A DNA stretch of 64,000 nucleotides from Rhodamnia argentea (taxonomy: Eukaryota > Streptophyta > Magnoliopsida > Myrtales > Myrtaceae). A program made the translations under genes and the position numbers. The stretch is taken from NCBI RefSeq assembly GCF_020921035.1, contig NC_063157.1:4650001-4714000 (forward strand). The letters are read 5' to 3'. The notes under the pieces were generated by a model. The model saw only the letters and a program-made list of their open reading frames with translations, had not been told where the DNA came from and did no database searches. Below, piece after piece: positions 1,139 to 64,000 of this stretch. Position 1 is the stretch's first letter. Every line of letters begins with the position of its first letter.

Positions 1139-1249
1139 CTCATCAAACTTCTCCCGATAGTTTGGGTCACCAATTATGAAAAACTTCACGAGAATACAAG
1201 GCCGGTTCGGTCAGCTGAACCTCGGTTCACAAAAAAGAAAGATGGTACT

Positions 1250-3079
1250 GTGACCATCAAGTTTGCAAAAGAAAAGGAGGACTCCTCGTCCCTTTTTCCT
1301 TCTTTCCCTACTATTCTCTGTTTCACCCCATGTCCATCCGAAACAGTTAGTATGGAAGACCCGGATCCAAAGAAATTCGTCCGATCTTTTGGTTCCGATG
1401 GGCAACCGATTCATGCCTTTAAGGATTCTTCAGGTCATTGCTTTTGGGATCCAGAATGTTCCTGTCCTTCTTGTACTTCTCCTGTTGAAGAAGACAACGG
1501 GCCCATTTCAAAAAGAAAGAAAAAGAAAAAAGATCCCTTGTATCAACGGTACCTTGACGGTGATCCCACCGTAGGTCCTCTTGGCGAAGACGGCGGAAAT
1601 TGGCAATACCTTGTTCAGTATGGTGCCCCTCCCGTACTTCAAATTCCTTCTCCATCCTCTTGTAAACCAGACCCCCCAAAATATCCACCAACACCGCCTC
1701 AGAAACCCGTTACCAGTCCCTTTTATAAACCCATCCAAAAATGGATCAAGAAAAATCCGTCTTGCTCCATTGATCTCCCAAAACCATACACATATGCTCC
1801 CATCCCCGAACCACTTCCAAGCATCCGTATGTTTCAACTTGGCGATTTTCCTCCACTTCGGCCCAGAGATGAATCTCACTCATCCACTTTAAATTTTCCA
1901 CCACTCGGAAAATTCTCTGACCCTCAGCAGCAGTATTATCATGCTCCTAAGATACCTGCACTAACCGAGATTGACCCACATGGGAAAAAGAAAGGTCCAG
2001 CTCCGACTGAAACTGTTCTCAATTGGCGGATAGAAAATGCCTTAGCCCAAAACGTGGCTCTTGAGAAAGTTTCTACTCAAGTAGATCGAGTTGATCAAGC
2101 TTCTACACACATCTGCAAGATGCTTGCGGATTTCCGGAAGAGAGTCTACATGATGGAAAATCAACGGCTCCATCACCATTACTTAGAAGACCGGACTCCT
2201 CAAATAGAGAAGGTGAAGAGACAGATCCTCATTCTTGAAAATCAGAAAGCTCAACTTGAGTATCAACCACCTTTCTCCTCATTTACTTCCCCTATTTCTC
2301 CATTTCCCTCCCATACACGTCCTACTACTCGTTCGTTCCAAGCTTCTAGCCAAACTTCTTCGACCCCTTTCCAAGAAGTTCTTGAGACAGTACCTTCAGA
2401 TTCGGGTATAAACGTACTCGCTCTTCGAGCTCGTCTCAAAGCAATCAAGAAGGCTGAAGCTGATGCCGAAAGAACAAAATTCTCCGACACATCATCATCG
2501 GTTCCTACTTTTCCAATTCCCCCCACAGCACCGCGAGAACCTCCCGACTCACCTCCACATTCCCCTTCACAGAAGCTACCTTCATTCATGATTTCTAATC
2601 CCATTGAAAGTTTTTTGAGGAAACAAATTCCATCCATTTCCACAATTCAAGCCACTGAGCAAGATGATTCTTCTTCAACATCATCTGCACCACCATCAGA
2701 AACATCTCCTTCTTGAGAATCCGAAAATGATTCTGAACACATTTCAGACGACCAAATCCCAGCCATTATGATGGTCGTGGCGATCCCAAAAGAAGAAGAT
2801 GAAGAAGTGGAATTTGTCAATCTTAAAACCCCTTCAGATCCAAGTCCATCATCTCGTCCAGCCCATTCCTCATCAAGCACGTACTTTACTCTTGATGATG
2901 TTCCTTACCATCGTTGGCCCATGAAAATCCAGGAGTTCCATACATGGCTTGTTGCCAGAAATCTAGTTGAACAAAGCACTTATGAAGTTCTCTTAGAATT
3001 CACTAGCAAGTTCATTGGAACCCCGAAAGATCGGTGGATCTCCATCTCGAACAAGACCAAATTGCTTTTCTCCCGATGA
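1250..3079 (+). pseudogene. Caulimovirid proline-rich/coiled-coil and coat N-terminal region, one nonsense codon
   Basis: A long open frame of 488 codons (1250-2716), after which the same frame stays open to 3079 beyond a TGA at 2714-2716. The first ATG that could start a viral product is uncertain; one lies at 1352. Visible features are a cysteine cluster (CSCPSC) near residue 70, a lysine-rich patch (KRKKKKKD), a proline-rich stretch around residues 120-215, a helical, charged region near 270-340, and a Ser/Pro-rich end. The 2768-3079 part (sequence around YFTLDDVPYHRWP) looks like the start of the capsid region. The frame is lost between 3060 and 3298. Placement between movement protein and zinc knuckle suits a virion-associated/coat region. 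The exact function is inferred from position only. Confidence 0.6.
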
Positions 3080-3297
3080 ACTTTAATCGGGCTATGCGGA
3101 GTCATTCACCCGTATTTTGTTGGTCAACCCACCGGTGAAAGAGAACTCAAGCGAAAAGAGTTCTTTGAACGAAAATGCTGCTCCACTTCTCGAAAGGATC
3201 TTGATAGACATTTCAAAGAGATGATTCGACTCTTTTATCATCTCGAGAGCGGACATCAATCTTAAACCAATCTTTTTAGCCTCCATTCCTAAAGAGA

Positions 3298-6209
3298 TTG
3301 CGAGATGAAGTTGATAAACATCTTCAAAGGCCTCTCCTTGAATCCACACTCGGAGAAATACAGCAAGCTGTTCATATTGCCATTGAAGAAAAATGCAGAA
3401 GAAAAAGACAGTTCGACCAGTTCTTAAAAGAAAACCGCAAGTATGACAAGAAGCGTGAAAGGCCAGAATGGAAGATCAAATGCACCGGAGACCGTAATGA
3501 TCCGTCTTGCTCGGGTCACAAGAAGAAAGTTCATTTCAAGAAGTTTTCATTTGCGAAGCCTCGCAGAAGCAAGTGGAAATTCCTCAGAAAGAAATCACGC
3601 GGTCGTTACGCAAAGCACCGCAAGAAACCCAAGTCTGACGGATGTTATATTTGCAACAAGAAAGGTCATTTTGCAAAGAAATGCCCCCAAGCAAAAAAAC
3701 AGGGCGGTTACATGATCCGGAAGATCTCTCAAAACACTGGGATCTCTCTCGGTGATGAAGACGTTGAATCCATCTTCTCCATTGAAGAAGAGCCGTCTCC
3801 AAACACTTTGTGTGCCATCGAAACTTACTCTTCTGATTCAGACTCAGCCCCGGGAGATATTCTCTCCTTCTTTCCTCTTGCTGATTCTTTCAGAATCCAC
3901 TCCCCAACATTCCATCCCCCACATTTTCCAGTCCAGCTCCACCTTCCAGACAACACCAAATCCATCCAAGTCATTGCCCTCATTGATACTGGCGCATTTG
4001 CATCCCCGCTAGATACCAAAATCCTTCCAGAAGAATCTTGGACACCATATACCAGATATTTCCAAGCGGCCTCGGGAGAAACTTTTACTACCAAACTGCG
4101 TAGTAAACCCCTCACCATCCATATTCTCCCTGGTTGTGAAATCACCACCCAAATCCTTGGATGTCCATCTCATGACAAGGATCTCATCATTGGTTGGGAT
4201 ATTCTTTCTAAGCTCCCACAACTCAAGATAAACCCTAAGGGGTTAAAGTTTCAAAAGAAGTTCCAAGAGTTTGTTGAAATCCGGAGACTCTTTCTCATCC
4301 AACCAGAAATCCTTGATCCCATTTATCAATCTCTCATTTCTCATTGTTCAGAATCTCACCAGCGGTTTGCCCGGATTTGCTCCAACCCTCTTTGGCAAAA
4401 TTCTGACTTTTTTGTCAAAATTCCCTTCAAGAAAAATGGAGAAATCAATCCCACCAAGGCAAGTCATTCGGGTATGAACCCGGATCACCTTGCTCAAGCA
4501 CAAGCAGAATGTGCTCGGCTTCTTTCTCAAGGACTCATTGAGCCCTCTGACTCCCCTTGGGCATGTGAGGCCTTCTATGTCAACAAAAGAGCAGAGCAAA
4601 ATCGTGGAAAGCTACGGTTAGTCATAAATTACCAGCCTCTCAATCTGTTCATCCAAGATGACAAATTCCCATTGCCCCATAAGAACTCTTTGTTCTCCAG
4701 CCTTGCTCAGGCCAAGATCTATTCCAAATTCGATCTTAAGGCAGGGCTTCGGCAATTAGGAATTCATCCCTCGGACAGATTCAAAACCGGTTTCTGCATC
4801 CCTAACCAACACTTCCAATGGAGAGTCCTTCCCTTTGGACTTAAAACTGCTCCGTCCCTATTCCAAAAGGCGATGTGCAAAATTTTCCAACCTATCCTTG
4901 CTAATGCCCGGATCTACATTGATGATATTCTCCTGTTTTCCCATGATGAACATTCTCATGCAAAACTCCTTCGACAATTTCCGAAATTGTGCATACTCAT
5001 GGCATCATGCTGTCACAAAAGAAGATGATCATAGCTCAACGAGAAATTGAATTTCTCGGCATGCGTTTGAAAAATGGAACCTATTGCCCAGGACCACACA
5101 TTGCAGAAGATCTCCAGAAATTCCCAGATGAAAACCTCTCGGTCCACCGGATCCAATCCTTTTTAGGAATTGTCAATTATCTCAGAGATTTCATCCCAAA
5201 AATTTCTCGGATCCTTTCTCCTCTGCAAAAGATGTTGAAAAAGAATCCTCCTCCTTGGTCACAAAAGCAAACCACTTCCATTAAGACCTTAAAAGAAATA
5301 CTGCAAAATTTGCCCCCTCTCCGGATCCCTTCCACTGGAACCGGAATTCTTCAGACGGATGCCGGTGACAAGCACTGGGCAGCTATCCTCCTTGAAGAAA
5401 TTAAAGGTAAGCGAAGAATCTGTGCATACAAAAGTGGAAAGTTTTCGACGGCAGAAATGCATTATCACTCCACTTTCAAAGAAATTCTTGCGGTAAAAAA
5501 TGGAATCAAAAAATTTGAATTTCATCTCATTGGTCATCATTTTTTAGTCGAAATGGACATGTCCTCTTTTCCCCAGATGCTCAAATTCAAGCAAAAGCAA
5601 GTTCCTCATCCTCAACTCTTGCGTTGGGCGTAATGGTTTTCTAAATACTCTTTCGATTCAAAACACATTTACGGAAAGAAAAATATTTTGGCTGATTTCT
5701 TTTCTAGGCCAAAAGAACCTTTCGAATCCATCAACATGTTCATTCGAAAAGAGTTTTCAGGATCCTTCAAAACCCAGAATATGCGTGAACACCGGTGGCC
5801 ATCACACCCGTATCCACCCGATATCCCTCCACTCCTCAAACAGAATTCCCTCTCCGATAATTTTCACAGATTATTTTGGAATTACCATTATGTCATCTTT
5901 AAAGATTATGGTGGATTATTCCTCAAACCAGGTCTCAATTGTGATTATCCGTTCATACATCCATTAAGATGGTCTTCTACCATCCCTTTCCCTTCCGATT
6001 TAAAATGGATGTTTTGGTTTATGTTTCACCTCTACCAAGTTGCCATAGAGTTCCCTTTAGACGAAATCATTAAGGTTTTGTCTGATTCCCTTTTTGGAAA
6101 TTATCGGGACCATCCCCAGAAGTTCTTCCTTGATATTCTCACTTGGTTCCAACCCCTTCAAGCATGGAAACACTTGTTCATTCTTCAAAGACAAGTTGGT
6201 CGACCGTAA
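3298..6209 (+). pseudogene. Broken caulimovirid zinc knuckle-protease-RT-RNase H polyprotein
   Basis: Frame 3298-5028 shows, in order, a basic region, a C-x2-C-x4-H-x4-C zinc knuckle (near 3646), a retropepsin motif DTGA (near 3985), and reverse-transcriptase blocks including a LVINYQPLN-type motif and the YIDD active site (near 4915). The frame shifts around 4975-4990 and continues as 4989-5633 through the RT thumb and RNase H, with a TAA at 5631-5633. The same frame then reopens with the end of RNase H (an ILADFFSRP-type motif near 5690) and a C-terminal extension to 6209. In the family this polyprotein makes coat, protease and the enzyme that copies pregenomic RNA into DNA. A frameshift and a nonsense codon make this copy inactive. 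No integrase follows, which supports a caulimovirid over a Ty3 element. Confidence 0.85.
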
Positions 6210-23297: not shown

Positions 23298-26200
23298 ATG
23301 GGTGCCTCCACCGCCCAACCGACGCCGTACTCCACGGCGGCTCTTCCGTCGGCCGCCGACTCCGTCCCGCTCTCCCCCTCGTCTCAGGTAGCCACTTGCT
23401 CACCCCCTGGTCGGCGGATGCGATCATCGGTTTTGTTTTCTTCTCTCTCCTTTTGATACCGGGTCGTGGAATGTTCGCTCAGGAGAAGAATCAGTCCGCG
23501 CAATGTTGGGTTATTTAGTTTTTGTTTCGCGATTTCGCTGGTCTTGCTCTCTCCCTAATTGGCGCGTGCAAGTTTGTCCTGGGGACCGTGTCGTAGTTGA
23601 GTCCAAGGTTTCAAAACCGGTTCGCTAGGTTTTGCTCCGTCTGGGTAGTAATGCTAATGCATGCGTTGTTTAAAGGGAACGTTAAGAATCTAGGGATTGA
23701 TGACCTGAACAATGTCGATTGTCTGGAGCTCCAGTTTGGCGGCAAAGTCGTCTTTTTTTGTGCGTTGAATCGTGCAGGCCCCGTAAAGTAGAACTTTTGA
23801 GAATGAGAATCCGTTTTTTCATAAAGAAGAGAGAAGCGGGGAGAATGTATAATTAAATACGTGCTCCTTGAATCACGTCTCCAATCGGCAAGGAGAGAAA
23901 GGAAACTTAAGTAAATGTTCTGTGATTTTTTAAATGGCCGGCTCCTTCTAGGAGTTGTGCACCTTTGAAGATTCTCCTATTTTTCCTTTAAAATTCATGC
24001 ATGAGTCTGCATTTAGGGAGCTTAATGTGTTTCATTCCATTAACATAAGCAGAAGAGGATCGGAAAACTTGCTGACGTGGTTCTGGCAAACCTCGCCAAG
24101 TTGGGCCCTACCAGTGGAGTGCCTGCATCCCATTCCCGAAACAGCATCGAGAAGCAACTCAGCAAGCTATTCCCAACGTTCCAGACTCCCGATCACCCTA
24201 CCTATGCTGTGGTATTTTCCCTTTTCTTTTTTTCTCATTTACTGCCCTTCCACGTGCAATCCTCCCAACTTTGGAGCATCCTGCTTTCACGAGGTTTTCT
24301 TGCATATTTTTGGTAGACCTGCATTTTACATGATGTTGCGCATCTGATTTGCACGAGCATTTTGTCTAGATGATTCGCAGGGCAATTCAGGAACTAAATG
24401 AGGAAGGGGGTTCTAGTGAGGAATCGATATCTAAGTTCATTAAGGCAGAATATCAGGATTTGCCATGGGGACATACCAGCTTGTTGAGTCATCATCTAAA
24501 GAAGCTCAGTGAATGTGGGGATATTGTTTCTGCATCTGCAAACCGTTACGTTTTAACAGTTGGTGACAACAATATCTCGGTACCTGATAGAAGGGATAAA
24601 GGTAAGAGAGGAGGCCGGCTAAGGAGTGAGAGAAAAAAGTTACGCAAAAAGAAAGATTCGTTGTCTGAGAAAGAGAATGTTGGAGCTGAGGATATAAGTA
24701 AGCAGCAAGGTTTAGTGATTCAAGTTACCAATCCATTGAAGAAAGCTCTTCCATCAGTTAGGGGGACTGAGGGCAAGTATCAATTGCAGCATCAGCAAGT
24801 TCAGCTAAATAGACAAAAGGAGCTGGATGTGATGAATGAAGGAAGAATAGGGGTTGAAGCGAATGAAGTACTGCATGAAGCACATATGCAGGAATGTGAA
24901 AGAATTGAGATCTTGGAGAAAGCACAAGGGGGAACCTTTCAAGCAATTGAAGAAGGAAAACGAGAGTGCCAACAATCCGTAGCAGTTCAGCTGAAAGAGG
25001 AACGTCCTCAACAGCATGAAATAATTGAAGAATCTAGACCTGCAGAGCAGGAAAATGAAGTAATTGAAAATCAAGCTCAATTGTGTGAGCAGCATGACAA
25101 AGATCATAGTCAATCAATTGTTCACAAGGATGAACATGGCAAAGATCATTGTCAATCAATTGTTCACGAGGATGAAGCTCAAAAACAAATTGATGTGGTT
25201 GTTGTGGAGCAGAATCCTCAACATCAAACCCAGGATAACGAAGCCATGGAAGAAGACTATGCAGGGGACGACCTTGATGGGAAACTAGTTGAACAGGATA
25301 AAGTTGAAGTCATCAAGGAGCATGACCTACTAGATCAACAGTATGAAATTCTTGGCTTACAACTCCAGATGTTGGAAGAAGAAATAGCAGGGATGGGAGA
25401 GCTAACCAATCACCCAAGGCAACAAATTGAATTGGCTGATGAAAATGTTGTGGCACAAGAAACATTAATTGAGTCGAGGAACAGAAGTACTGCTGTTGGG
25501 TATGCTCTTTCCCCTTTATCTCCTCCTCCTGTTCTCTTTTATAGCAGATTGACGAGCACTTGGGTGCTAAAAAGAGAACAGATGATGAAAGTATAGTAGC
25601 AAGATGGTCCACGTAATTGGTTGATATAAATCACAACTAGCAAAGTTCGATTGATTGAGCATAATTAGTCCAGCAATCGTACCGTGGAAGTTTAAGATTT
25701 ACCATTTTTGTCTATTTTGTCGGGATGTATTACAATCTTCGTCTTAACAATGTGCGGACGTTTAGGAAACTTTTTGGGTAAGATTGCAAACTTTCATCCC
25801 ATTATCGTATAATGGTCTGATGATAATACAGCGACTGATTTTTTTTCCCTGATAATATAGCATGGTGCAGGAGCAGCTACGTGAGAAACAAGGGGAGATT
25901 CTCTCTGTTGTGGTCGGACCAGATCCACTTCCTAGTGCTCATACTTTTGAGGAAGTAGGTCCGTCACATATTTCCAAGGTAAATATGCACGCTGATCTTT
26001 TCTAAATGTGATGTAGTTTTGCTTGTTTTCCTTTGATCCCCTGTGTGAACTCTGCTGTTATAATTGCATCTTTGCTTCGCTAATAATCAGGAGAAGTGTA
26101 TACAACTGCTAAAGAGGAACAAAGAGATTGAGGGTCGGCTCATGGCAATACTTGAATCTTGGAATGCGATGGAGGCTTCAACCCACGTGCCTTGGCAGAA

Positions 26201-44185: not shown

Positions 44186-44678
44186 AAATTCAGGAATTAT
44201 ATAGAATAAATTAAAAGTTTAGACGGCATTGCACATGAGCTATAGTTCAGAGATTATATTAAAAAAATTTAAATTTAAGAATTATACTACACATTAGATC
44301 AAAATTCATACATTATTTGTGTCATCATCCCACTGTATATAATCATAGCCTTCATTGGACGGTTCACAATGCACCGCACTTGCGGTCGCTGGGTAAATGC
44401 GGTCCTCGAGCAACACCAGATCCCCATGTCCGGAAGTTCACTGACTTTTCCATATTGACCATAATGACCTTCTCTTCCCTACGTGGCGAGATTTCATTAG
44501 TCAGTTGAAAACAGCGCGTGAAGGAGGAAGATCGACCTTGACTGAACTGTCCCTACTCCGTTCGTCTCCCCCCTCTTAAAAATCTCCCAAAAACTCCACG
44601 CCATCACATCCTTCAAATCTGCCTCTTTCTCTTAGGCATTTCCGCGAACACCTCGCGAGCAAACCCATTTAACCGACA

Positions 44679-45791
44679 ATGGCGACCCAGAACGACACAC
44701 CCAAATCCGGATCCGGAGCCAACGGCGAAGCCCCGCCGCCGCAGCACCGCAAGGTGGCCCTGATCACCGGCATTACCGGCCAGGACGGGTCGTACCTCAC
44801 CGAGTTCTTGCTCGACAAGGGGTACGAGGTCCACGGCCTGATCCGCCGCTCCTCCAACTTCAACACCCAACGGATCAACCACATCTACATCGACCCACAC
44901 AACGCCCACAAGGCCCGGATGAAGCTCCACTACGCCGATCTCTCCGACGCCTCCTCTCTCCGCCGCTGGATCGACACGATCTCCCCCGACGAGGTCTACA
45001 ATCTCGCCGCCCAGTCCCACGTGGCGGTCTCGTTCGAGATCCCTGATTACACCGCCGACGTCGTTGCCACAGGCGCCCTCCGCCTGCTCGAGGCCGTGCG
45101 CTCACACGTCTCCGCCACGGGCCGCAGCCACATCCGTTACTACCAGGCTGGGTCCTCGGAGATGTTCGGATCGACCCCACCGCCGCAGTCGGAGACCACC
45201 CCGTTCCACCCGCGGTCCCCCTACGCCGCGTCCAAGTGCGCGGCGCACTGGTACACCGTGAACTACCGCGAGGCGTACGGTCTGTTCGCGTGCAACGGGA
45301 TCTTGTTCAACCACGAGTCCCCGCGGCGGGGCGAAAACTTCGTGACCCGGAAGATCACGCGGGCCGTGGGGCGGATCAAGATCGGGCTGCAGAGCAAGCT
45401 GTTCCTGGGAAATCTGCAGGCCTCTCGGGACTGGGGATTCGCTGGGGACTACGTGGAGGCGATGTGGATGATGCTGCAGCAAGAAAAGCCGGACGACTAC
45501 GTGGTTGCGACGGAGGAGTCGCACACGGTGGAGGAGTTCTTGGACGTGGCGTTTGGGTATGTGGGGCTGAAGTGGAGGGACCATGTGGTGATCGATAAGA
45601 GGTACTTCAGGCCAGCGGAGGTTGACAACTTGAAGGGAGATGCAAGTAAGGCCAAGAAGGTGTTGGGTTGGAAGCCCAAGGTTGGGTTTGAGAAGTTGGT
45701 GAAGATGATGGTCGATGAGGATGTTGAATTGGCTAAGAGAGAGAAGGTTCTTGTTGATGCTGGGTACATGGATGCTCAGCAACAGCCCTGA
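44679..45791 (+). CDS. GMD: GDP-mannose 4,6-dehydratase
   Basis: An intronless gene of 370 residues, matching the intronless structure and length of Arabidopsis GMD1 and GMD2/MUR1. It is an extended short-chain dehydrogenase. A disordered N-terminal 24 residues precede the Rossmann motif GITGQDG (about residues 30-36), followed by [16 protein letters not shown], the SSEMFG active-site segment (about 159-164) and the catalytic YAASK (about 182-186). The segment [16 protein letters not shown] is typical of GMD. The enzyme converts GDP-D-mannose to GDP-4-keto-6-deoxy-D-mannose using bound NADP, the first step of GDP-L-fucose synthesis in the cytosol for cell-wall xyloglucan, rhamnogalacturonan II and N-glycans. 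The 5' half is GC-rich and the 3' part less so. There is no GMD partner gene (GER1-type) in the window. Confidence 0.97.
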
Positions 45792-47728: not shown

Positions 47729-48213
47729 AAAATTACCAAAAAAGTTTTAAATCTATTGCAATTGTGTCAATTTAGTCTTAATTTTTTTTTTATCAATTGA
47801 GTTCTTAACCTTTTGCATTTGTGCCAATTCGGTTCATCTAGCCAACTTTGGCCAATCGGTCTTGACGTGACAATTTTGATTAATATTTCCAAATATTTTC
47901 AATTTCTTATTTTTTATTATTTGATTTATTTGATTTTCCTTTTTTTTTTCCTTCTCCTTCTTCCTCCAGTCGGTTATTGGATCGGCAACCCGCCAGGAGC
48001 GAGGCCTAGAGGAAGAAGGAGAAGAAGCGAAAAATATTTTTTTTAAAAAGTATTATTAAAAATTGGTAGACAATTTCTGTCAAATAAAACTGGCTTGGTG
48101 GACTTAATTGACGCAAATATAAAATGTTTTAAAACTCAATTGGAAAAAAAAAAGTTTAGAACTAAATTACCATAATTGCAATAAGTTTAGGCCTTTTTTC
48201 TGGTGATTTTCTC
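47729..48213. mobile_element. MITE of the 30.5 kb family
   Basis: The left arm ('accaaaaaagttttaaatct', 'tcggttcatctagccaac') pairs with the right arm ('aactaaattaccataattgc', 'ttaggcctttttt'). The core carries 'cttctccttcttcctcc' and its inverted 'ggaagaaggagaag' (47953 and 48010), which could form a hairpin. Confidence 0.6.
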
Positions 48214-49640
48214 ATATAATCACTGGCTTCCCTTCTTCCTTAAGCATATTAAAGATATAATTGATACCTAGGATGCAATTGAATCTTAAAGTTTGTAAAT
48301 TACATAATTAAATCCTAAAATTTGCAAGCATCGAGTATCTCCATAATCTGTAAGCCAGGTCTTTAATTGCTGAAATCCAGAACAGCAGTAATGGTTTTCT
48401 TGATATTGATTTTGGTACGTCGTTATAAGTAAGATGAGCGATCCAATGTTCTCATTCAATAGCCATTGAAAGATGTCCTAAATAACTAACCCACGCCTTT
48501 AGAGACGACAAATTCGCTGGTATCGCACCACTGTAGCGACGGTTTTTTCTTCTTTTGCACTAGTCTTTCCAGTTGTTTCCCAATGTCTTCCTCGTCAATG
48601 TGCTCATTTCGTATTATTCAAACATTGGCGCACCTCAACGAATCCATCTCTACAAGTAGACTCGTTCTTTATATTCACAATACCTCGCGCACACGTATCT
48701 ATCTATTCATCGGATAACGAGTGAGTTGCGATGGACATATCTCTTTCATTTCTAAAGACTATTGTTGGTGGCGTAACGGGATATGCATTATGTTGAAAAA
48801 TATCGTCGAGAATGGGATGAAATGAAATCATATTTTGAAGCACGATAACACTCTCTTTAAAGATTTATTTGCCCTACAACTTTGCTAATGGTTTCCGACA
48901 AATATCGTCCAGGATACAACAAAGTCTCAAGTGAGAATAGCATATAGGAATTCCAATAGTTATCTAAGATCTCTCAAGGGAAACAATTGGAAAAAAAATG
49001 CCGTATTTCTTTGACAAAGAACGAAAATGGACGTTGTCCTAAACATTGAGGAAAATCGTAATACATACAAATATGTGTGTGCGTGCGCGCGCGCCCGAAA
49101 ACCTTTGCGAACGGACATGTTATTTTTAAAATATCACAACTTTTCACTTATGAAAAGAATGCAACTTTTCGTATTCGAAAACTGTTAAATTCGAACGTAA
49201 CTCTTCATGTCCGAAAACTATTAATTCGGACACAACTCTTCATCTCTGGAAATTGCTATGTTTGGAAAAAATGCAGCCTTTTAAAGGTTGTAAGAATGAC
49301 TAATATCTGTTAGGCAGAAAATAAATTAAATTTGAAATTTTAATAGTTACTCCTTCATGAATAGTCACACTATTCTAATGAGTCGCAAAATTTACTTTAT
49401 AATTATAATTTTGAAAATAGTAAACGAACAATATATATTTATTGGTTAGTGCTATTTTTGGTCCACGCACTCGCATGTAGGTATAGTGGAGTCTAGTACA
49501 CTTTTTCTTCCATCATATGCGTGATGAAGTAAAGACCCTTTTCGTTTGTTTTGCAAACAAACTTCAACACATTAGACCCAATTCCTCTGCATTTTATGAT
49601 GTTCGATGTTTGACACAAGTAATTAAGCAAGGTCTGCCTT

Positions 49641-50251
49641 GGGAAGATTGTCCAAAAAGTCCTTAATCTATCGTACTTTTGCCAATTCAGTCCTAAATCT
49701 TTTAATTTTGCCAACTGAGTCTTAAACTTTTTTACGTTTTGCCAATTAAATCTATCTGATCAATTTTGATTGGAAATTGATAACTTGGAAGCCGGCCGTC
49801 CTACGTAGCACGACGGGCGTTGATATGTATAATTTTCAATAATATTTTACTATTTTAAATTTTTTTATTAATCTTATTATTATTTTTCTGATTCCTTTCT
49901 TTACCTTTCTCTTTCTTTTTAGCTTTATTTTTTTGTAATTTTCCTTTTTCGCCTAGTCTGGCAAGGGTCGCCCTTGCCCGGGTGAGCGAGGACCGCCCTT
50001 GCTCGACCTGGCGAGGGCCTCCTTGTCCCGGTCATCCCTCGCCCGAGGGAAGGGAAAAAGAGAAAAGATAAAAAAAAAAATCTTGTTTTTTTATAAAAGA
50101 TTGTCCACATTAGCTTCAGCCGTGCAATGTAAAAAGGCTAGTTGTCTACGCCAGTGATTTTCTGCCAAAACTCAATTAGCAAAACATGAAAAGGTTTAGG
50201 ACTGAATCAACAAAATTGCAATAAGTTTAGGTTTTTTTGGACAATTTTCCC
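49641..50251. mobile_element. MITE with well-preserved terminal inverted repeats
   Basis: It begins 'gggaagattgtccaaaaagt' and its end reads 'gggaaaattgtccaaaaaaa' on the minus strand. Pairing continues for more than 50 bases through 'gattcagtcctaaa'. The GC-rich core (49970-50045) repeats 'cgcccttgc' and 'gagggc' phrases. A second copy lies at 63291-63900. Confidence 0.7.
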
Positions 50252-51272
50252 GCCCCTTGGTCGCATTGTAGATCATTTGTCATGAAACATGTGCCACAGA
50301 ACCTGTTACCTGAGAGAGCTTTGGTCAACATAACTGACATAACTATAGCTTGTTTTGTAAGACGACAAGAGAGCTTTCTTTTGTCCATTACTTCTATTCC
50401 AAACTTGCTATTTAAGGAAGGAAAAATCATAGCCAAATGATGGGGGCAAGGTATAAGCATAACAACCACATTTCCTAGTATTGTGGGCATGTTTGTTTGG
50501 TAATGTTCGATTCGTTGATTGTGCTTTAAAGTGTCCAACCCGCGAAGAAAGACAGGAAGTAACCCCACCAAAAAAGATCGAATAAATGCTTCCCTTGACA
50601 TTGCTAATATTGCTAAGGAACAAGGCACCAAGGCAATGCAAGACTACACAATTTTTGCTTGGAGTGAGAATCTTAACTGAGGGTTCCTTCCTTATTCACC
50701 GGAAGAGCTCACCTATGCAAGGAAGACTCCACATACAACTTTTGACATGATTTCGATCTGTCTGACTAATCGATTAAGTGTTCTCGTTTGATACGTGCAT
50801 GATATGTCTCTCCCGTCGCTCATATGCGCCGCTAAAGAGTCAAATTCTCAAGGGAGGGTGGAATTTCATCATGGTGTGAAATTCTTGAGGGGCATTTTTT
50901 TTTTTTGTGGTCATTTCTGCAACTCCTAGTCCGGCGACTGTAATGATCGAATTGATTATCTTCAGGCATAGGAACAAACTATGGAATACTGAGGTGGATG
51001 TGTAAGATGGCTACATCAAGCGATTCGACAGATTTCAAAAGCGGAAAGCTTTACCTGACTAGTCTTGTAAACTAAGTCTTGCATCATAAGTTATTGCGAG
51101 AGATGCTTTCTCCCCCGTCTCACGGTCCAAAAATGGCACAAGCAAAGAACCGAACAAACCTTGTCGTAGACAGGAGAGACCATACCAAGAAAAGCATATG
51201 ATAAAAGAAGAACCTACATAGAGAGAGAATGATATGTCCCAACAAATTAATTCGATCTTACCAAACAAACCA

Positions 51273-51336: not shown

Positions 51337-54300
51337 ATGGATGCTTCTGATGCGAAAAAACGCACGATGGCTAGCGAAGCGGCCGCCGAGATCTTGTCGC
51401 AGAAACTAGAGACCTTGCTCCATCACCCGGAGTGCGTCAGGTGCTTATCGATGGACGACCTCGTGAAGGAGGCCAAGAAGAAGGTGGCCACGATCCAAGG
51501 GTTCTTTTCCACTCAAGACAGACCGTCCAAGAGCATGGAGTGGTTGGGGCGGCTCCTCCGAGCCATGTATGAGGCTGAGGACTTCATCGACAAGTTCCAC
51601 CTCGGAGAGGCCCGGGGGAGGCACGGAGCCCTCCACGTGGTCACAAGGCCGGCTGCCGAGCTCGTCTCCAAGTACGAGCTGTGGAGGAACTTGTCCAATC
51701 TGGTGAAAAAGTTGGAGGAGTTGTGTCAAGATCAGTACTTGAAGAGCAAGATGAAAATGGTACCCGCTAGTTCCTGCTCCCCTGCTAGCGTAACATGGCA
51801 AGGCCAAAAAAAAGTGAGGCTGACTAGCTACTGGAATCTGCAAGCATCCTACTTATGTCGCAAGGAGAAGAAAAAGAAAATAATGGAGCTGATTGAGGGG
51901 GAAGCGAAGGGGCAGGTTGTCACTGTGACTTCGATTTGGGGTGAGGAAGGCACCGGCAAGACGTTGCTCGCGAGATCGGTCTACGGGGAAGCGATGTGCC
52001 TCGGTGTCGAGTCACGTGCTTGGGTCCACGTCTCGGCTGGCATGGAGGTGAAGGAGTTCCTGTTCGAGATACTGAGGCAAATGGGGATGCCAGCGAGGGA
52101 GGTGAAGGACATGAGTTTGGACGAGATAACGGAAATGCTTTCCAACGAATTGGCCAAGAGGAAGAAGTACCTCATAGTGTTGGATAACGTGCAGCAGTCC
52201 AACACGCTACTCTTGCTAAGGTTCGTGGGGATCATCCTGTTCCATCGGCAGGGCCACATAATCATCGCCACTCGACACTCTAGCATAGACGGCATCATGA
52301 AACTTTTTGAGGCAACGGGGATCGTGCTAGATAAATTAAACGATGATAAAAGCAAGAAGATGCTCGCTAGTAAGTTGTATAGAGTACCCGATGGTCAGAA
52401 TCTCTGGAAGAACAAGGATATCCTAAGTACTTGTGGGGGCTTGCCGCTCAGTCTGTCCTTACTCGGCGGGTTACTGTCATATGCTGAAGAGCACGAACGC
52501 CAAGAGCCCAAGCTCTCGGCGTTGCTGAAAGATTGTTCGGGATTATCAGGTATAGTCCAATCGAGTTACCGTAGATTGCCGGTTCATCTAAAACCGTGTT
52601 TCATCTACATGGCTTTGTTCCCCGTGGCATCCCTGATTCCGACAAGAAGGCTAGTGAGGCTGTGGTTGGCCGAGGGCTTATTGGATTCGCATTGTTACGA
52701 CAGCGAGAGGAAACGGACGAGGCTGCCTGAGGATGTAGGAGAGAATTTCATTCTGGAGCTCGCGGAAAGGAACCTGATTGATGTGGTGAGCTGGAGGGCG
52801 GACGGATCCCCCAAGGCTTGCCAAATGCCCACCCGTATGCACGACATGATCCTCCCGATCGCGATCAGCTCGGGGTTCCTTCACATACATGACGCTAGCA
52901 AGTCGAAACACGGCGAACTGACCAGCCAGCAAGAACAGGCCCAACCGCGAGAAACCAAGGTCCGGTGGCTCGCGGAGCACACAAACATAGTCAGAGGCGG
53001 CCAAGGCAGCAGCAACCCCGGCTTGAACCTCGGCCAAGTCCGCTCATTTCTGTCGTTCTACCTGAGGAGAGGCATGCTCACCAAGGACATAGGCACGGTC
53101 CTGCGGAACATCACCTCCAAGACTGACTATAGCTTGCTGAGGGTACTCGACTTGGAGGGCGTGTATAAGCCGTCCTTGCAAGGGGTGCTCCACAAGCTGG
53201 TGCTCCTAAGGTACCTAGGATTGAGATCCACGGTGTTGGACTCGATCCCGCGCGAGGTCGCGGATCTGCACTATCTCGAGACTCTCGACATAAAGCACAC
53301 CAACATCACTTCCCTCCCGAGTTCCTTGTGGAAGGCGAGGAACCTGAGGCACCTGCATCTCAACTGGTTCTACATCGACTTGAAGAAGATCCTCAAGGCT
53401 TGTGGCAACAACGTCGAGGCCTTGGCTAAACTCCAAACCTTAAGCGGGCTGGTCATCGGTGACGTGAAGGAGAACTCGATGACGGAACACATGAACAGCT
53501 TGACCTCGCTCACCACGCTCAAGCTTTTCTTGCAACAGTCGGATAAGGGCCCCTCCTCAGGCGCTGCAGGGAAAATGATATCCCGTTGGATTAGCACCAG
53601 GCTCACCAATCTCCAGTCCTTGACCTTTGGGGTGATCCAAGAAGCCAAATCCGCTGAAGAAGCCGAGACTGCGAAAGGAGCCGAGCCCCAGGCAGGAGCC
53701 AAGCAAGAGGTAGGAGCGGCACCGGCGGAGCCCACGAAAGCCAAACCCAAGAAATCGCAGGTAGGAGGGTTACCAACACTGTCGCTGGCTGAACATCACG
53801 AGCTGTTGGAGCTCTACTTGCTGGGGCAACTCGAGAAGCCCATCTGGACACGGCTCTTGCCCGACTCGCTCCGGGTTCTGACTCTGTCGGGTTCGAAGGT
53901 GGAAACAGACATGATCCCCGAGCTGGGGAATCTCCTGACGAGCCTGAGGACGCTCAGGCTCTTGGCCAACTCTTTCCGAGGCAAAAGCTTGAGGTTCACC
54001 GCAGGTGGCTTCCCGAGCCTCAAGATCTTGAAGATTTGGAAGCTGCCACAGCTCGAGGACGTGACTATCGAAGAAGGAGCAATGCCGCATCTCAAAGAAG
54101 TCGAGTTCAGGCACCTCGAGAAGCTGAAAACTATCGATAGGATCTGCCGTTGCAAGGAGTTGGAAACCATATGGGTGATATATGGCACCGATAAACCTGC
54201 TTTTGTGAAGCCTCTCGAGGACGGTAAGGGAGATGAGACGATTCTGCACGTCGAAAGAGACACCGAGGGGTCCGGATCTATGGACACCGACGAAGACGAC

Positions 54301-56197
54301 AGGTATGAGATGATTGATATTCAATCTCGAACATGTTCTACACGCGTGGTGATTGAAAATGCTTTTTTTAGTCTTGATAATTTCAATAATTACTTAGTAG
54401 TTTTTAAAAAGAATGATAAAATTCAGGGACAAAGAAGGAGAGACGTCCGCTCAACACCCTGAAGAGGACGGTAAGGGAGATGAGACGATTCTGCACGTCG
54501 AAAGAGACACCGAGGGGTCCGGATCTATGGACACCGACGAAGACGACAGGTATGAGATGATTGATATTCAATCTCGAACATGTTCTACACGCGTGGTGAT
54601 TGAAAATGCTTTTTTTAGTCTTGATAATTTCAATAATTACTTAGTAGTTTTTAAAAAGAATGATAAAATTCAGGGACAAAGAAGGAGAGACGTCCGCTCA
54701 ACACCCTGAAGAGGACGGTAAGGGAGATGAGACGATTCTGCACGTCGAAAGAGACACCGAGGGGTTCGGATCTATGGACACCGACGAAGACGACAGGTAT
54801 GAGATGATTGATATTCAATCTCGAACATGTTCTACACGCGTGGTGATTGAAAATGCTTTTTTTAGTCTTGATAATTTCAATAATTACTTAGTAGTTTTTA
54901 AAAAGAATGATAAAATTCAGGGACAAAGAAGGAGAGACGTCCGCTCAACACCCTGAAGAGGACGGTAAGGGAGATGAGACGATTCTGCACGTCGAAAGAG
55001 ACACCGAGGGGTCCGGATCTATGGACACCGACGAAGACGACAGGTATGAGATGATTGATATTCAATCTCGAACATGTTCTACACGCGTGGTGATTGAAAA
55101 TGCTTTTTTTAGTCTTGATAATTTCAATAATTACTTAGTAGTTTTTAAAAAGAATGATAAAATTCAGGGACAAAGAAGGAGAGACGTCCGCTCAACACCC
55201 TGAAGAGGACGGTAAGGGAGATGAGACGATTCTGCACGTCGAAAGAGACACCGAGGGGTCCGGATCTATGGACACCGACGAAGACGACAGGTATGAGATG
55301 ATTGATATTCAATCTCGAACATGTTCTACACGCGTGGTGATTGAAAATGCTTTTTTTAGTCTTGATAATTTCAATAATTACTTAGTAGTTTTTAAAAAGA
55401 ATGATAAAATTCAGGGACAAAGAAGGAGAGACGTCCGCTCAACACCCTGAAGAGGACGGTAAGGGAGATGAGACGATTCCGCACGTCGAAAGAGACACCG
55501 AGGGGTTCGGATCTATGGACACCGACGAAGACGACAGGTATGAGATGATTGATATTCAATCTCGAACATGTTCTACACGCGTGGTGATTGAAAATGCTTT
55601 TTTTAGTCTTGATAATTTCAATAATTACTTAGTAGTTTTTAAAAAGAATGATAAAATTCAGGGACAAAGAAGGAGAGACGTCCGCTCAACACCCTGAAGA
55701 GGACGGTAAGGGAGATGAGACGATTCTGCACGTCGAAAGAGACACCGAGGGGTCCGGATCTATGGACACCGACGAAGACGACAGGTATGAGATGATTGAT
55801 ATTCAATCTCGAACATGTTCTACACGCGTGGTGATTGAAAATGCTTTTTTTAGTCTTGATAATTTCAATAATTACTTAGTAGTTTTTAAAAAGAATGATA
55901 AAATTCAGGGACAAAGAAGGAGAGACGTCCGCTCAACACCCTGAAGAGGAGAAGCACCAATCAACGGGCGACGGCAATAGGTATGGGACAATATTAAACC
56001 TCAAACATGTTCACTACGCACGATGATAGAAAATGTTCTTGTGCACTCGATAATTTCAATAATTGCTTACTAGTTACTAAAAAACGATAAAATTCAGGGA
56101 CGAAGGAGGAGATATGTCCGGCCAGCACACTGAAAAGGAGAGACCCCAATCCACGGACGACAGTGATGACAATCATATTCATATTCATGTAGAGTGA
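51337..56197 (+). CDS. CC-NB-ARC-LRR immune receptor (NLR-A) with tandem-exon acidic tail
   Basis: Nine predicted exons: 51337-54302, then 54427-54549, 54674-54796, 54921-55043, 55168-55290, 55415-55537, 55662-55784, 55909-55980 and 56098-56197. Junctions are all GT-AG in phase 2 (3876 nt, 1291 residues). Residues 1-150 form a coiled-coil domain with an EDVID-like EAEDFID motif (about 78-84). NB-ARC follows: P-loop GEEGTGKT (about 202-209), kinase-2 LIVLDNV (about 277-283; Asn replaces the usual second Asp), GLPL (about 368), RNBS-D CFIYMALFP and MHD (about 500-502). LRRs cover about 600-970, interrupted by an Ala/Glu/Lys-rich insertion (about 769-810). The tail is made of tandem acidic 41-residue repeats from repeated exons. 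NLRs of this type sense pathogen effectors in the cytosol and trigger defence. The start at 51337 is preferred over 51229, whose extension is low-complexity, and it aligns with the start codon of the broken second copy. Confidence 0.85.
54217..55945 (+). repeat. Seven-unit 247-bp tandem array, each unit an exon plus an intron
   Basis: Seven units start at 54217, 54464, 54711, 54958, 55205, 55452 and 55699, with a constant 247-base period. Each contains the donor 'gacag|gtatgagatg' and acceptor 'aaaattcag|ggacaaag', dividing it into a 124-base intron and a 123-base exon. 123 is divisible by three and the exon is phase 2 at both ends, so any number of units keeps the frame. Units differ at only a few bases: 'ggggtccgg' or 'ggggttcgg', and one 'gattccgc'. 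The introns look identical. The array ends at 55945 within a diverged exon; the following intron (55981-56097) is a more distant relative of the repeated intron, which points to the ancestral module. Confidence 0.93.
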
Positions 56198-61490: not shown

Positions 61491-61860
61491 GACCAACTTT
61501 GGCCGATCAGTGTTGACGTGACAATTTTGATTAATATTTACAAATATTTTCAATTTCTTATTTTTTTATTATTTCATTTATTTATATTTTTTTTTTTCCT
61601 TCTCCTTCTTCCTCTTGTCGGTCACTGGATCAGCAACCTGTCAGAAGCGAGGGCTAGAGGAAGAAGGAGAAGAAAACAAAAAGATTTTTTTAAAAAAGTA
61701 TTATTAAAAATTGCTAGACAATTTTCGTCTAATAAAGTTGGCTTTATGGACTGAATTAGCGTAAATACAAAAGGTTTTAAGACTCAATTGAAAAAGAAAA
61801 AAAGTTTAAAACTAAATTACCACAATTAAATAACTTCAGGACTTTTTCTGCGTAATTTTT
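61491..61860. mobile_element. MITE missing its left end
   Basis: Copy of the element at 47729-48213, starting only at 'ccaactttggccgatca'. The left arm is lost at the junction with the retroelement. Confidence 0.6.
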
Positions 61861-63290
61861 CCATATAATCACAGACTTCCCTTCTTCCTTAAGTGTATTG
61901 AAGATATACTTGATACTTGTGATGCAATTGAATCTTAAAACTTGTAAATTATATAGTTTAATCCTAAAATTTGTAAGCATCGAGTATCTCCATAATCTGT
62001 AAGCCAAGTCTTTAATTGCTGAAATCCAGAACAGCAGTCATGATTTTGTTGATATTGATTTTGGTACAATGTTATAAGTAAGATGAGCGATCCAATGTTC
62101 TCATTCAATAGCCATTGAAAGATGTCCTAAATAACTAACCCACGCCTTTAGAGAAGACAAACTCCGCAGGTATTGCACCACTGTGGCGACGGTTTTTTCG
62201 TCTTTTGCACTAGTCTTTACAGTTGTTTCCCAATGTCTTCCTCGTCAATGTGCTCATTTCGTATTATTCAAACATTGGCGCACCTCAACGAATCCATCTC
62301 TACAAGTAGACTCGTTCTTTATATTCACAATACCTCGCGCACACGTATCTATGTATTCATCGGATAACGAGTGAGTTGCGATGGACAGATCTCTTTCATT
62401 TCTAAAGACTATTGTTGGTGGAGTAACGGGATATACATTATGTTGAAAAATATCGTCGAGAATGGGATGAAATGAAATCATATTTTGAAGCACGATAACA
62501 CTCTCTTTAAGGATTTATTTGCCCTACAACGTTGTTAATGGTTTCCGACAAATATTGTCCAGGATACAACAAAGTTTCAAGTGAGAATAGCATATAGGAA
62601 TTCCAATAGTTATCTAAGATCTCTCAAGGGAAACAATTGAAAAAAAAATGCCGTATTTCTTTGACAAAGAATGAAAATGGACGTTGTCCTAAACATTGAG
62701 GAAAATCGTAATACATACAAATATGTGTGTGCGTGCGCGCGCGCCCGAAAACCTTTGCGAACGGACATGTTATTTTTAAAATATCACAACTTTTCACTTA
62801 TGAAAAGAATGCAACTTTTCGTATTCGAAAACTGTTAAATTCGAACGTAACTCTTCATGTCCGAAAACTATTAATTCGGACACAACTCTTCATCTCCGGA
62901 AATTGCTATGTTTGGAAAAAATGCAGCCTTTTAAAGGTTGTAAGAATGACTAATATCCGTTAGGCAGAAAATAAATTAAATTTGAAATTTTAATAGTTAC
63001 TCCTTCATGAACAGTCACACTATTCTAATGAGTCGCAAAATTTACTTTATAATTATAATTTTGAAAATAGTAAACGAACAATATATATTTATTGGTTAGT
63101 GCTATTTTTGGTCCACGCACTCGCACGTAGGTATAGTGGAGTCTAGTACACTTTTTCTTCCATCATATGCGTGATGAAGTAAAGACCCTTTTCGTTTGTT
63201 TTGCAAACAAACTTCAACACATTAGACCCAATTCCTCTGCATTTTATGATGTTCGATGTTTGACACAAGTAATTAAGCAAGATCTGCCTT

Positions 63291-63900
63291 GGGAAGATTG
63301 TCCAAAAAGTCCTTAATCTATCGTACTTTTGCCAATTCAGTCCTAAATCTTTTAATTTTGCCAACTGAATCTTAAACTTTTTTACGTTTTGCCAATTAAA
63401 TCTATCTGATCAATTTTGATTGGAAATTGATAACTTGGAAGCCGGCCGTCCTACGTAGCACGACTGGCATTGATATGTATAATTTTCAATAATATTTTAC
63501 CATTTTAAATTTTTTTTATTAATCTTATTATTATTTTTCTGATTCCTTTCTTTACCTTTCTCTTTCTTTTTAGCTTTATTTTTTTGTAATTTTCCTTTTT
63601 CGCCTAGTCCGGCAAGGGTCGCCCTTGCCTGGGTGAGCGAGGACCGCCCTTGCTCGACCTGGCGAGGGCCGCCTTGTCCCGGTCATCCCTCGCCCGAGGG
63701 AAGGGAAAAAGAGAAAAGATAAAAAAAAATCTTGTTTTTTTATAAAAGATTGTCCACATTAGCTTCAGCCGTGCAATGTAAAAAGGCTAGTTGTCTACGC
63801 CAGTGATTTTCTGCCAAAACTCAATTAGCAAAACATGAAAAGGTTTAGGACTAAATCAACAAAATTGCAATAAGTTTAGGTTTTTTTGGACAATTTTCCC
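63291..63900. mobile_element. MITE, second copy of the 49641 element
   Basis: The same ends, arms and GC-rich core as 49641-50251 with a few substitutions, carried along by the block duplication. Confidence 0.7.
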
Positions 63901-64000
63901 GCCCCTTGGTTGCATTGTAGATCATTTGTCATGAAACATGTGCCACAGAACCTGTTACCTGAGAGAGCTTTGGTCAACATAACTGACATAACTATAGCTT

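Follow-up and report, generated by a model that had tools for sequence, protein, structure and literature searches.

Gene architecture

The window analysed here is a stretch of 64,000 nucleotides (nt) from Rhodamnia argentea, an Australian tree of the myrtle family (Myrtaceae; assembly GCF_020921035.1, contig NC_063157.1, positions 4,650,001 to 4,714,000), and the gene in question occupies positions 51337 to 56197 of its forward strand, on which all of the gene features given below are located. It is probably a coiled-coil (CC) type nucleotide-binding leucine-rich repeat (NLR) gene whose acidic, disordered C-terminal tail was lengthened by the recent tandem duplication of one exon-intron module, the part of this reading that concerns function being the least certain.

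When spliced at the predicted sites, the gene model consists of nine exons and eight introns and encodes 1291 amino acids, the sole in-frame stop codon being the TGA at 56195-56197. Possible start codons are found at 51337 and 51367, with the NCBI model beginning at the latter (the second methionine). A search with the protein of exon 1 identified 164 proteins with E <= 0.001 among 7992 scored candidates; the counts given in this study cover the 120 listed matches, namely 48 from Myrtaceae, among which fragments and likely mis-predicted ends were all retained, and 72 others (six of them nameless). The best match is P0001, an NCBI putative disease resistance protein of R. argentea, which is the same as the spliced model from model residue eleven to its end (1281/1281 residues).

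Exon 1 (51337..54302) encodes the CC domain (Rx_N), NB-ARC, a winged helix, the leucine-rich repeats (LRRs) and the first segment of the acidic tail. Pfam analysis of P0001 showed matches to Rx_N (27.9 bits, marginal against a cut-off of 27.7), NB-ARC (82.3), WH_DRP (44.1) and LRR_14 (113.5), with a similar result for exon 1 alone. No TIR match was found in full-length P0001 (Pfam, E <= 0.001), the protein possessing Rx_N instead. Both the P-loop (GEEGTGKT) and the MHD motif are intact. That the gene is a pseudogene was rejected, as exon 1 is open, these two motifs are present and the NCBI model is full-length.

Six repeat exons of 123 nt follow: exon 2 (54427..54549), exon 3 (54674..54796), exon 4 (54921..55043), exon 5 (55168..55290), exon 6 (55415..55537) and exon 7 (55662..55784). 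Exon 8 (55909..55980) is 72 nt in length and, like exons 2 to 7, has phase 2 at both ends, while exon 9 (56098..56197) includes the stop codon. Intron 1 (54303..54426) measures 124 nt and its copies begin at 54550, 54797, 55044, 55291, 55538 and 55785; intron 8 (55981..56097) measures 117 nt.

Repeat array and splice sites

Tandem Repeats Finder (TRF) identified a repeat with a period of 247 at 54217-55950 (7.0 copies, 99% matches). The seven-unit array spans 54217..55945, each 247-bp unit comprising the sequence of the end of exon 1, a whole intron and the head of the next exon. As the exonic start of unit 1 belongs to exon 1 itself, only six complete repeat exons are formed. Of the 1482 bases in units 2-7, three differ from unit 1, one of them located in unit 3 and the other two in unit 6; units 2, 4, 5 and 7 match unit 1 throughout. 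All three are exonic and residue-changing: an S to F change is common to units 3 and 6 (exons 3 and 6), and an L to P change is also present in unit 6 (exon 6).

Introns 1-7 are all 124 nt in length with the junctions CAG/GTATGAG...ATTCAG/GGA (slashes marking the splice sites), whereas the donor of intron 8 is TAG/GTATGGG. The donor string CAGGTATG occurs seven times on the forward strand of the 64 kb, every time at an array junction, and once on the reverse strand; the acceptor string ATTCAGGGA occurs eight times on the forward strand, always at junctions, and is absent from the reverse strand. Intron 1 has an A+T content of 73%, compared to 44% for the repeat exon.

An earlier note on this DNA, made from the sequence alone, had described an NLR gene extended by tandem duplication of an exon/intron module, with seven units bearing introns with consensus splice sites, six complete symmetric repeat exons and a frame continuing through eight introns to 56195-56197. 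This description is upheld by the domain matches, by TRF and the comparison of units, by the whole intron found inside each unit and by the spliced model, and the splicing predicted there agrees exactly with the NCBI protein model.

Exon 8 is considered to have been exon 2 originally: the 42 nt at its start match the head of the repeat exon exactly, and its segment is also present in the protein of a close paralogue, P0002. Alignment of intron 1 with intron 8 gave 93 identical bases over 117, and that of exon 8 with exon 9 gave 57 over 72, the two exons differing by ten nonsynonymous and two synonymous changes in 21 codons. These alignments identify both pairs as diverged duplicates, exon 9 and intron 8 being the older relatives of exon 8 and intron 1, and so reveal an older layer beneath the array.

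Composition and predicted structure of the tail

The tail is 331 residues in length and, as the earlier note had proposed, is acidic (125 D+E and 32 K+R). By the charge-hydropathy rule it falls on the disordered side, with the remainder of the protein on the ordered side. In the predicted structure of P0002 (26 aligned sequences, mean predicted local distance difference test (pLDDT) score 71.5, predicted template modelling score 0.77), the ordered part ends with a strand at residues 975-980 (ILHVER, block pLDDT 71), which lies inside the segment repeated in P0001. From residue 981 the pLDDT is 23-36 per 10-residue block, and residues 982-1051 score below 50. Pfam analysis (E <= 0.001) showed no match in the tail of either P0001 or P0002, nor any recognised integrated domain, as the two proteins match only NLR-type and general AAA/LRR families.

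Many of the Myrtaceae relatives likewise end in acidic sequence, judging by their predicted proteins: at least 30% D+E was found in the last 30 residues of 23 of the 48 Myrtaceae matches and in none of the other 72, and the use of the last 50 residues gave 13/48 and 0/72, respectively.

Relatives and the single-unit form

The close paralogue P0002 supplies a single-unit homologue, compared here as protein. Its 85-residue tail corresponds to a direct junction of exon 1 with exons 8 and 9, and is identical at 84 of 85 residues to the collapsed tail of the gene model. That the frame continuity of the model is due to chance was rejected, as the model is identical to the NCBI protein and P0002 has this collapsed tail. 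P0001 and P0002 are most divergent at residues 100-400 (70-79 identical residues per 97-100 aligned) and near-identical at the C-terminal end (50/50, 3/4 and 81/81 in the last three aligned blocks), reflecting either recent exchange between the two tail regions or slow change in them.

A FastTree phylogeny built from the 43 proteins above 850 residues in length among P0001-P0053 placed P0001, P0002 and P0003 in one clade (support 1.0), joined by P0004 of Psidium guajava (support 1.0). In P0003 and P0004 the C-terminal end is short and the repeat is absent. A search directed at the tail (7986 scored candidates, E up to 10) gave five matches, P0001-P0004 and P0121, and no second expanded array; the repeat was found in P0001 alone and the single-unit form in P0002. 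P0121 (E 1.1e-5, 25% identity to the tail) possesses the Pfam domains of a two-component sensor protein and was taken for a composition match. Among the 120 listed matches, an 8-residue word occurs more than four times in P0001 alone; the maximum is four in P0117 and does not exceed two in the rest.

The ends of the 48 Myrtaceae models were classified with patterns of our own: six are spliced-like (including P0001 and P0002), eight read into a similar intron (for example, one ending DDRYGTILNLKHV), six are short, three are of another kind and 25 were unclassified. A DKxG segment following DR or DW occurs in the predicted proteins P0006 and P0019 of Eucalyptus and P0034 of Corymbia. To judge from such predicted proteins, the intron may be old among the relatives.

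Two further features of exon 1 were observed. The second acid of Walker B (52174-52191) is an asparagine (LDNV) in P0001 and P0003 and an aspartate in P0002; among the 39 of 48 Myrtaceae matches readable by pattern at this site, 30 have D, two N and seven another residue. An A/K/E-rich low-complexity insert is located in the LRR region (approximately 53640-53760; P0002 residues 777-811) and is of low confidence in the structural model. A similar insert, there itself repeated, is found in P0042 of Eucalyptus grandis.

Genomic surroundings

The gene lies between the two copies of a direct repeat (47842..50351 and 61493-64000) that are 95.5% identical at an offset of 13,651, the second copy being cut off by the end of the window. 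The repeat may mark the beginning of a segmental duplication with a further NLR copy outside the window. The 13.65-kb repeat was also considered as a pair of long terminal repeats around the NLR gene, but neither alignment end (47842 and 61493) starts with TG, and segmental duplication, while unproven, is likelier.

On the forward strand, 24370-25596 is an open frame with a linker histone domain and 44673-45791 is an open frame for GDP-mannose 4,6-dehydratase. A model of Syzygium grande (P0009) fuses an NLR to an end similar to the latter frame, a hint of shared gene order. At 1139-5633 (forward strand) frames are broken, and two of three scanned pieces match a zinc knuckle and reverse transcriptase, and RNase H, overlapping in different frames. 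We take this region to resemble a decayed endogenous pararetrovirus or retroelement.

Origin of the array

The proposed mechanism for the origin of the array is well supported, the direction of change in P0002 less so. The initial duplication would have joined the GAGGA of exon 8, the original exon 2 (55946..55950, right breakpoint), to the GAGGA of exon 1 (54217..54221, left breakpoint), the two forming a microhomology. The copied piece would thus contain 86 nt from exon 1, the complete intron of 124 nt and 37 nt from exon 2, creating a 123-nt fusion exon. Later unequal exchange, including a three-unit step, would have brought the count to seven; the change common to units 3 and 6 suggests that a three-unit block was copied once.

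The symmetry of the repeat exon is explained by this fusion of the end of exon 1 with the head of exon 2, the frame being kept. An in-frame duplication across one intron always yields equal end phases, and symmetry is therefore not independent evidence for the model. The exonic part of the copied piece is divisible by three in length and every copy comes with splice sites, so that adding or removing units should preserve both frame and splicing, changing the protein by 41 residues per step.

Comparison with known systems

The earlier note regarded NLR tails made in this way as undescribed, a claim that does not hold in its general form. According to the available text of two reports, Ma of Prunus is a TIR-type NLR (TNL) with five duplicated post-LRR (PL) exons, and genes of its cluster gain and lose exons (PMC4851768, PMC6141779). 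Like the gene described here, Prunus Ma and RMja have an NLR C-terminus lengthened via exon duplication, with both losses and gains of exons among paralogues (PMC4851768, PMC6141779). Ma differs, as far as this text describes it, in being a TNL and in its PL units, which are much longer domains, some of them well diverged (PL2 from PL1), and are preceded by intronic simple sequence repeats. The R. argentea gene is of CC type, with near-identical 41-residue acidic units encoded by an exon that is a fusion of two exons. No Pfam match to PL domains was found in the P0001 tail, although the coverage of PL by Pfam is not established and no Ma sequence was compared.

It has been described that Tsw of Capsicum is a CC-type NLR (CNL) with seven quasi-identical tandem LRR blocks near its C-terminus and a highly acidic tail predicted to be disordered (PMC9585916). 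From the part of this report that was available, it resembles the R. argentea gene in its class, in the presence of seven near-identical blocks and in its acidic tail, but its repeated blocks are LRRs and not the acidic tail, and the words "exon" and "intron" are absent from that text. In maize, a construct of the autoactive Rp1-D21 shortened by the final 34 residues of its acidic tail is reported to give no cell death, and the last 16 residues to be important for self-inhibition (PMC4342346). Rp1-D21 shares an acidic C-terminal end with the present gene, while repeated units are not mentioned in the available text of this paper. The number of C-terminal repeats (21 or 14 residues) in Arabidopsis RPW8.1 and HR4 is described to alter autoimmunity quantitatively (PMC6684095). 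Like the present gene these have intragenic C-terminal repeats, and there the number varies and shifts immune strength; on the same partial account, they differ in being partners of the NLR RPP7 and not NLRs themselves, and in that their repeats are predicted to be helical.

No title or abstract start in the literature listings describes an acidic CNL tail composed of exon-intron units, subscription papers being mostly outside their coverage. The acidic tail of exon-intron units is a striking novelty in form, while duplicated C-terminal exons and acidic tails have precedents in Ma, Rp1-D21 and Tsw.

Alternative explanations and putative function

Several points weigh against the reading given at the outset. 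The NCBI model could derive from the same splice logic as our own, and the ends of many relatives are short or annotated differently. The tree pairs P0001 and P0002 at low support (0.33), and the proposal that P0002 is the sister of P0001 was withdrawn for this reason. P0002 may have kept an ancestral single unit or may have lost units from an array, as both histories look alike in protein; the use of P0002 to date the array was withdrawn because a contracted array would look identical. The divergence of exons 8 and 9 is mostly amino-acid-changing and about equal to that of the introns, and gives no sign of selection on the tail sequence. It is also conceivable that the gene in fact contains a single unit, or a small number of them, multiplied by the assembler, as units this similar are difficult for short reads; yet units 3 and 6 differ, the flanks are clean and unique, and the fusion junction, which is not found in the P0002 protein, requires that a duplication truly took place at least once or that an error kept the frame by chance. 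An assembly artefact is therefore unlikely. Retention of intron 1, through which the frame stays open as far as a stop at 54462, would give a protein of 1041 residues with a short alternative end, leaving the array untranslated. The eight Myrtaceae models classed as reading into a similar intron are in keeping with such an outcome, whereas two genes of R. argentea have NCBI protein models with the ends expected from splicing, and this, like the DKxG-bearing proteins of Eucalyptus and Corymbia, speaks against it; it appears improbable.

With regard to function, the tail of a lengthened CC-type NLR would extend the last LRR strand by a flexible stretch of strong negative charge, possibly like that needed for activity and self-inhibition in maize Rp1; this is the least certain step of the proposal. 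Additional copies would most likely supply bulk and charge that the protein tolerates or that modulate it slightly; a new sensor domain is the less likely outcome. The chances are about even that the array is instead a neutral intragenic minisatellite, an accident of replication or recombination that is tolerated at a disordered end without immune effect. This explanation assumes the same origin and competes with the functional part only. It is favoured by the older exon copies, which have diverged about as much as the introns, and by the confinement of the repeat to P0001, both in the search directed at the tail and in the count of 8-residue words; the recurrence of acidic ends across the clade argues against it, as does the preservation of splice sites and frame in all seven units, though units of such young age would not be expected to have decayed. 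Each unit contains a copy of what is predicted to be the final LRR strand, together with an acidic linker, and two further roles were considered on that basis. The units could act as a multivalent element that binds a partner or competes for the end of the LRR, a very unlikely role: the predicted strand does lie within the duplicated segment and a loose LHV-like pattern is present in the last 140 residues of 19 of the 48 Myrtaceae matches (no chance level was computed), but the L to P change falls inside this strand in one unit, no partner is known and the strand was modelled in the single-unit P0002 only. Alternatively, the array could be a fast-mutating rheostat of length and charge, with alleles of different unit count, generated by unequal exchange with frame and splicing unharmed, setting different thresholds of self-inhibition. 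This too is unlikely, and the "length-tunable" tail of the earlier note is extrapolated from one array and one single-unit paralogue.

Significance

The gene and its paralogue provide a clean case in which one-unit and seven-unit forms occur within one genome. They illustrate how two exonic breakpoints can create a new symmetric exon and, with it, a protein tail variable in steps of 41 residues. The role of acidic NLR tails is a question raised by both Rp1-D21 and Tsw, and if copy number is found to vary among trees and to affect signalling, this locus would offer a natural series for testing such tails in plant NLRs.

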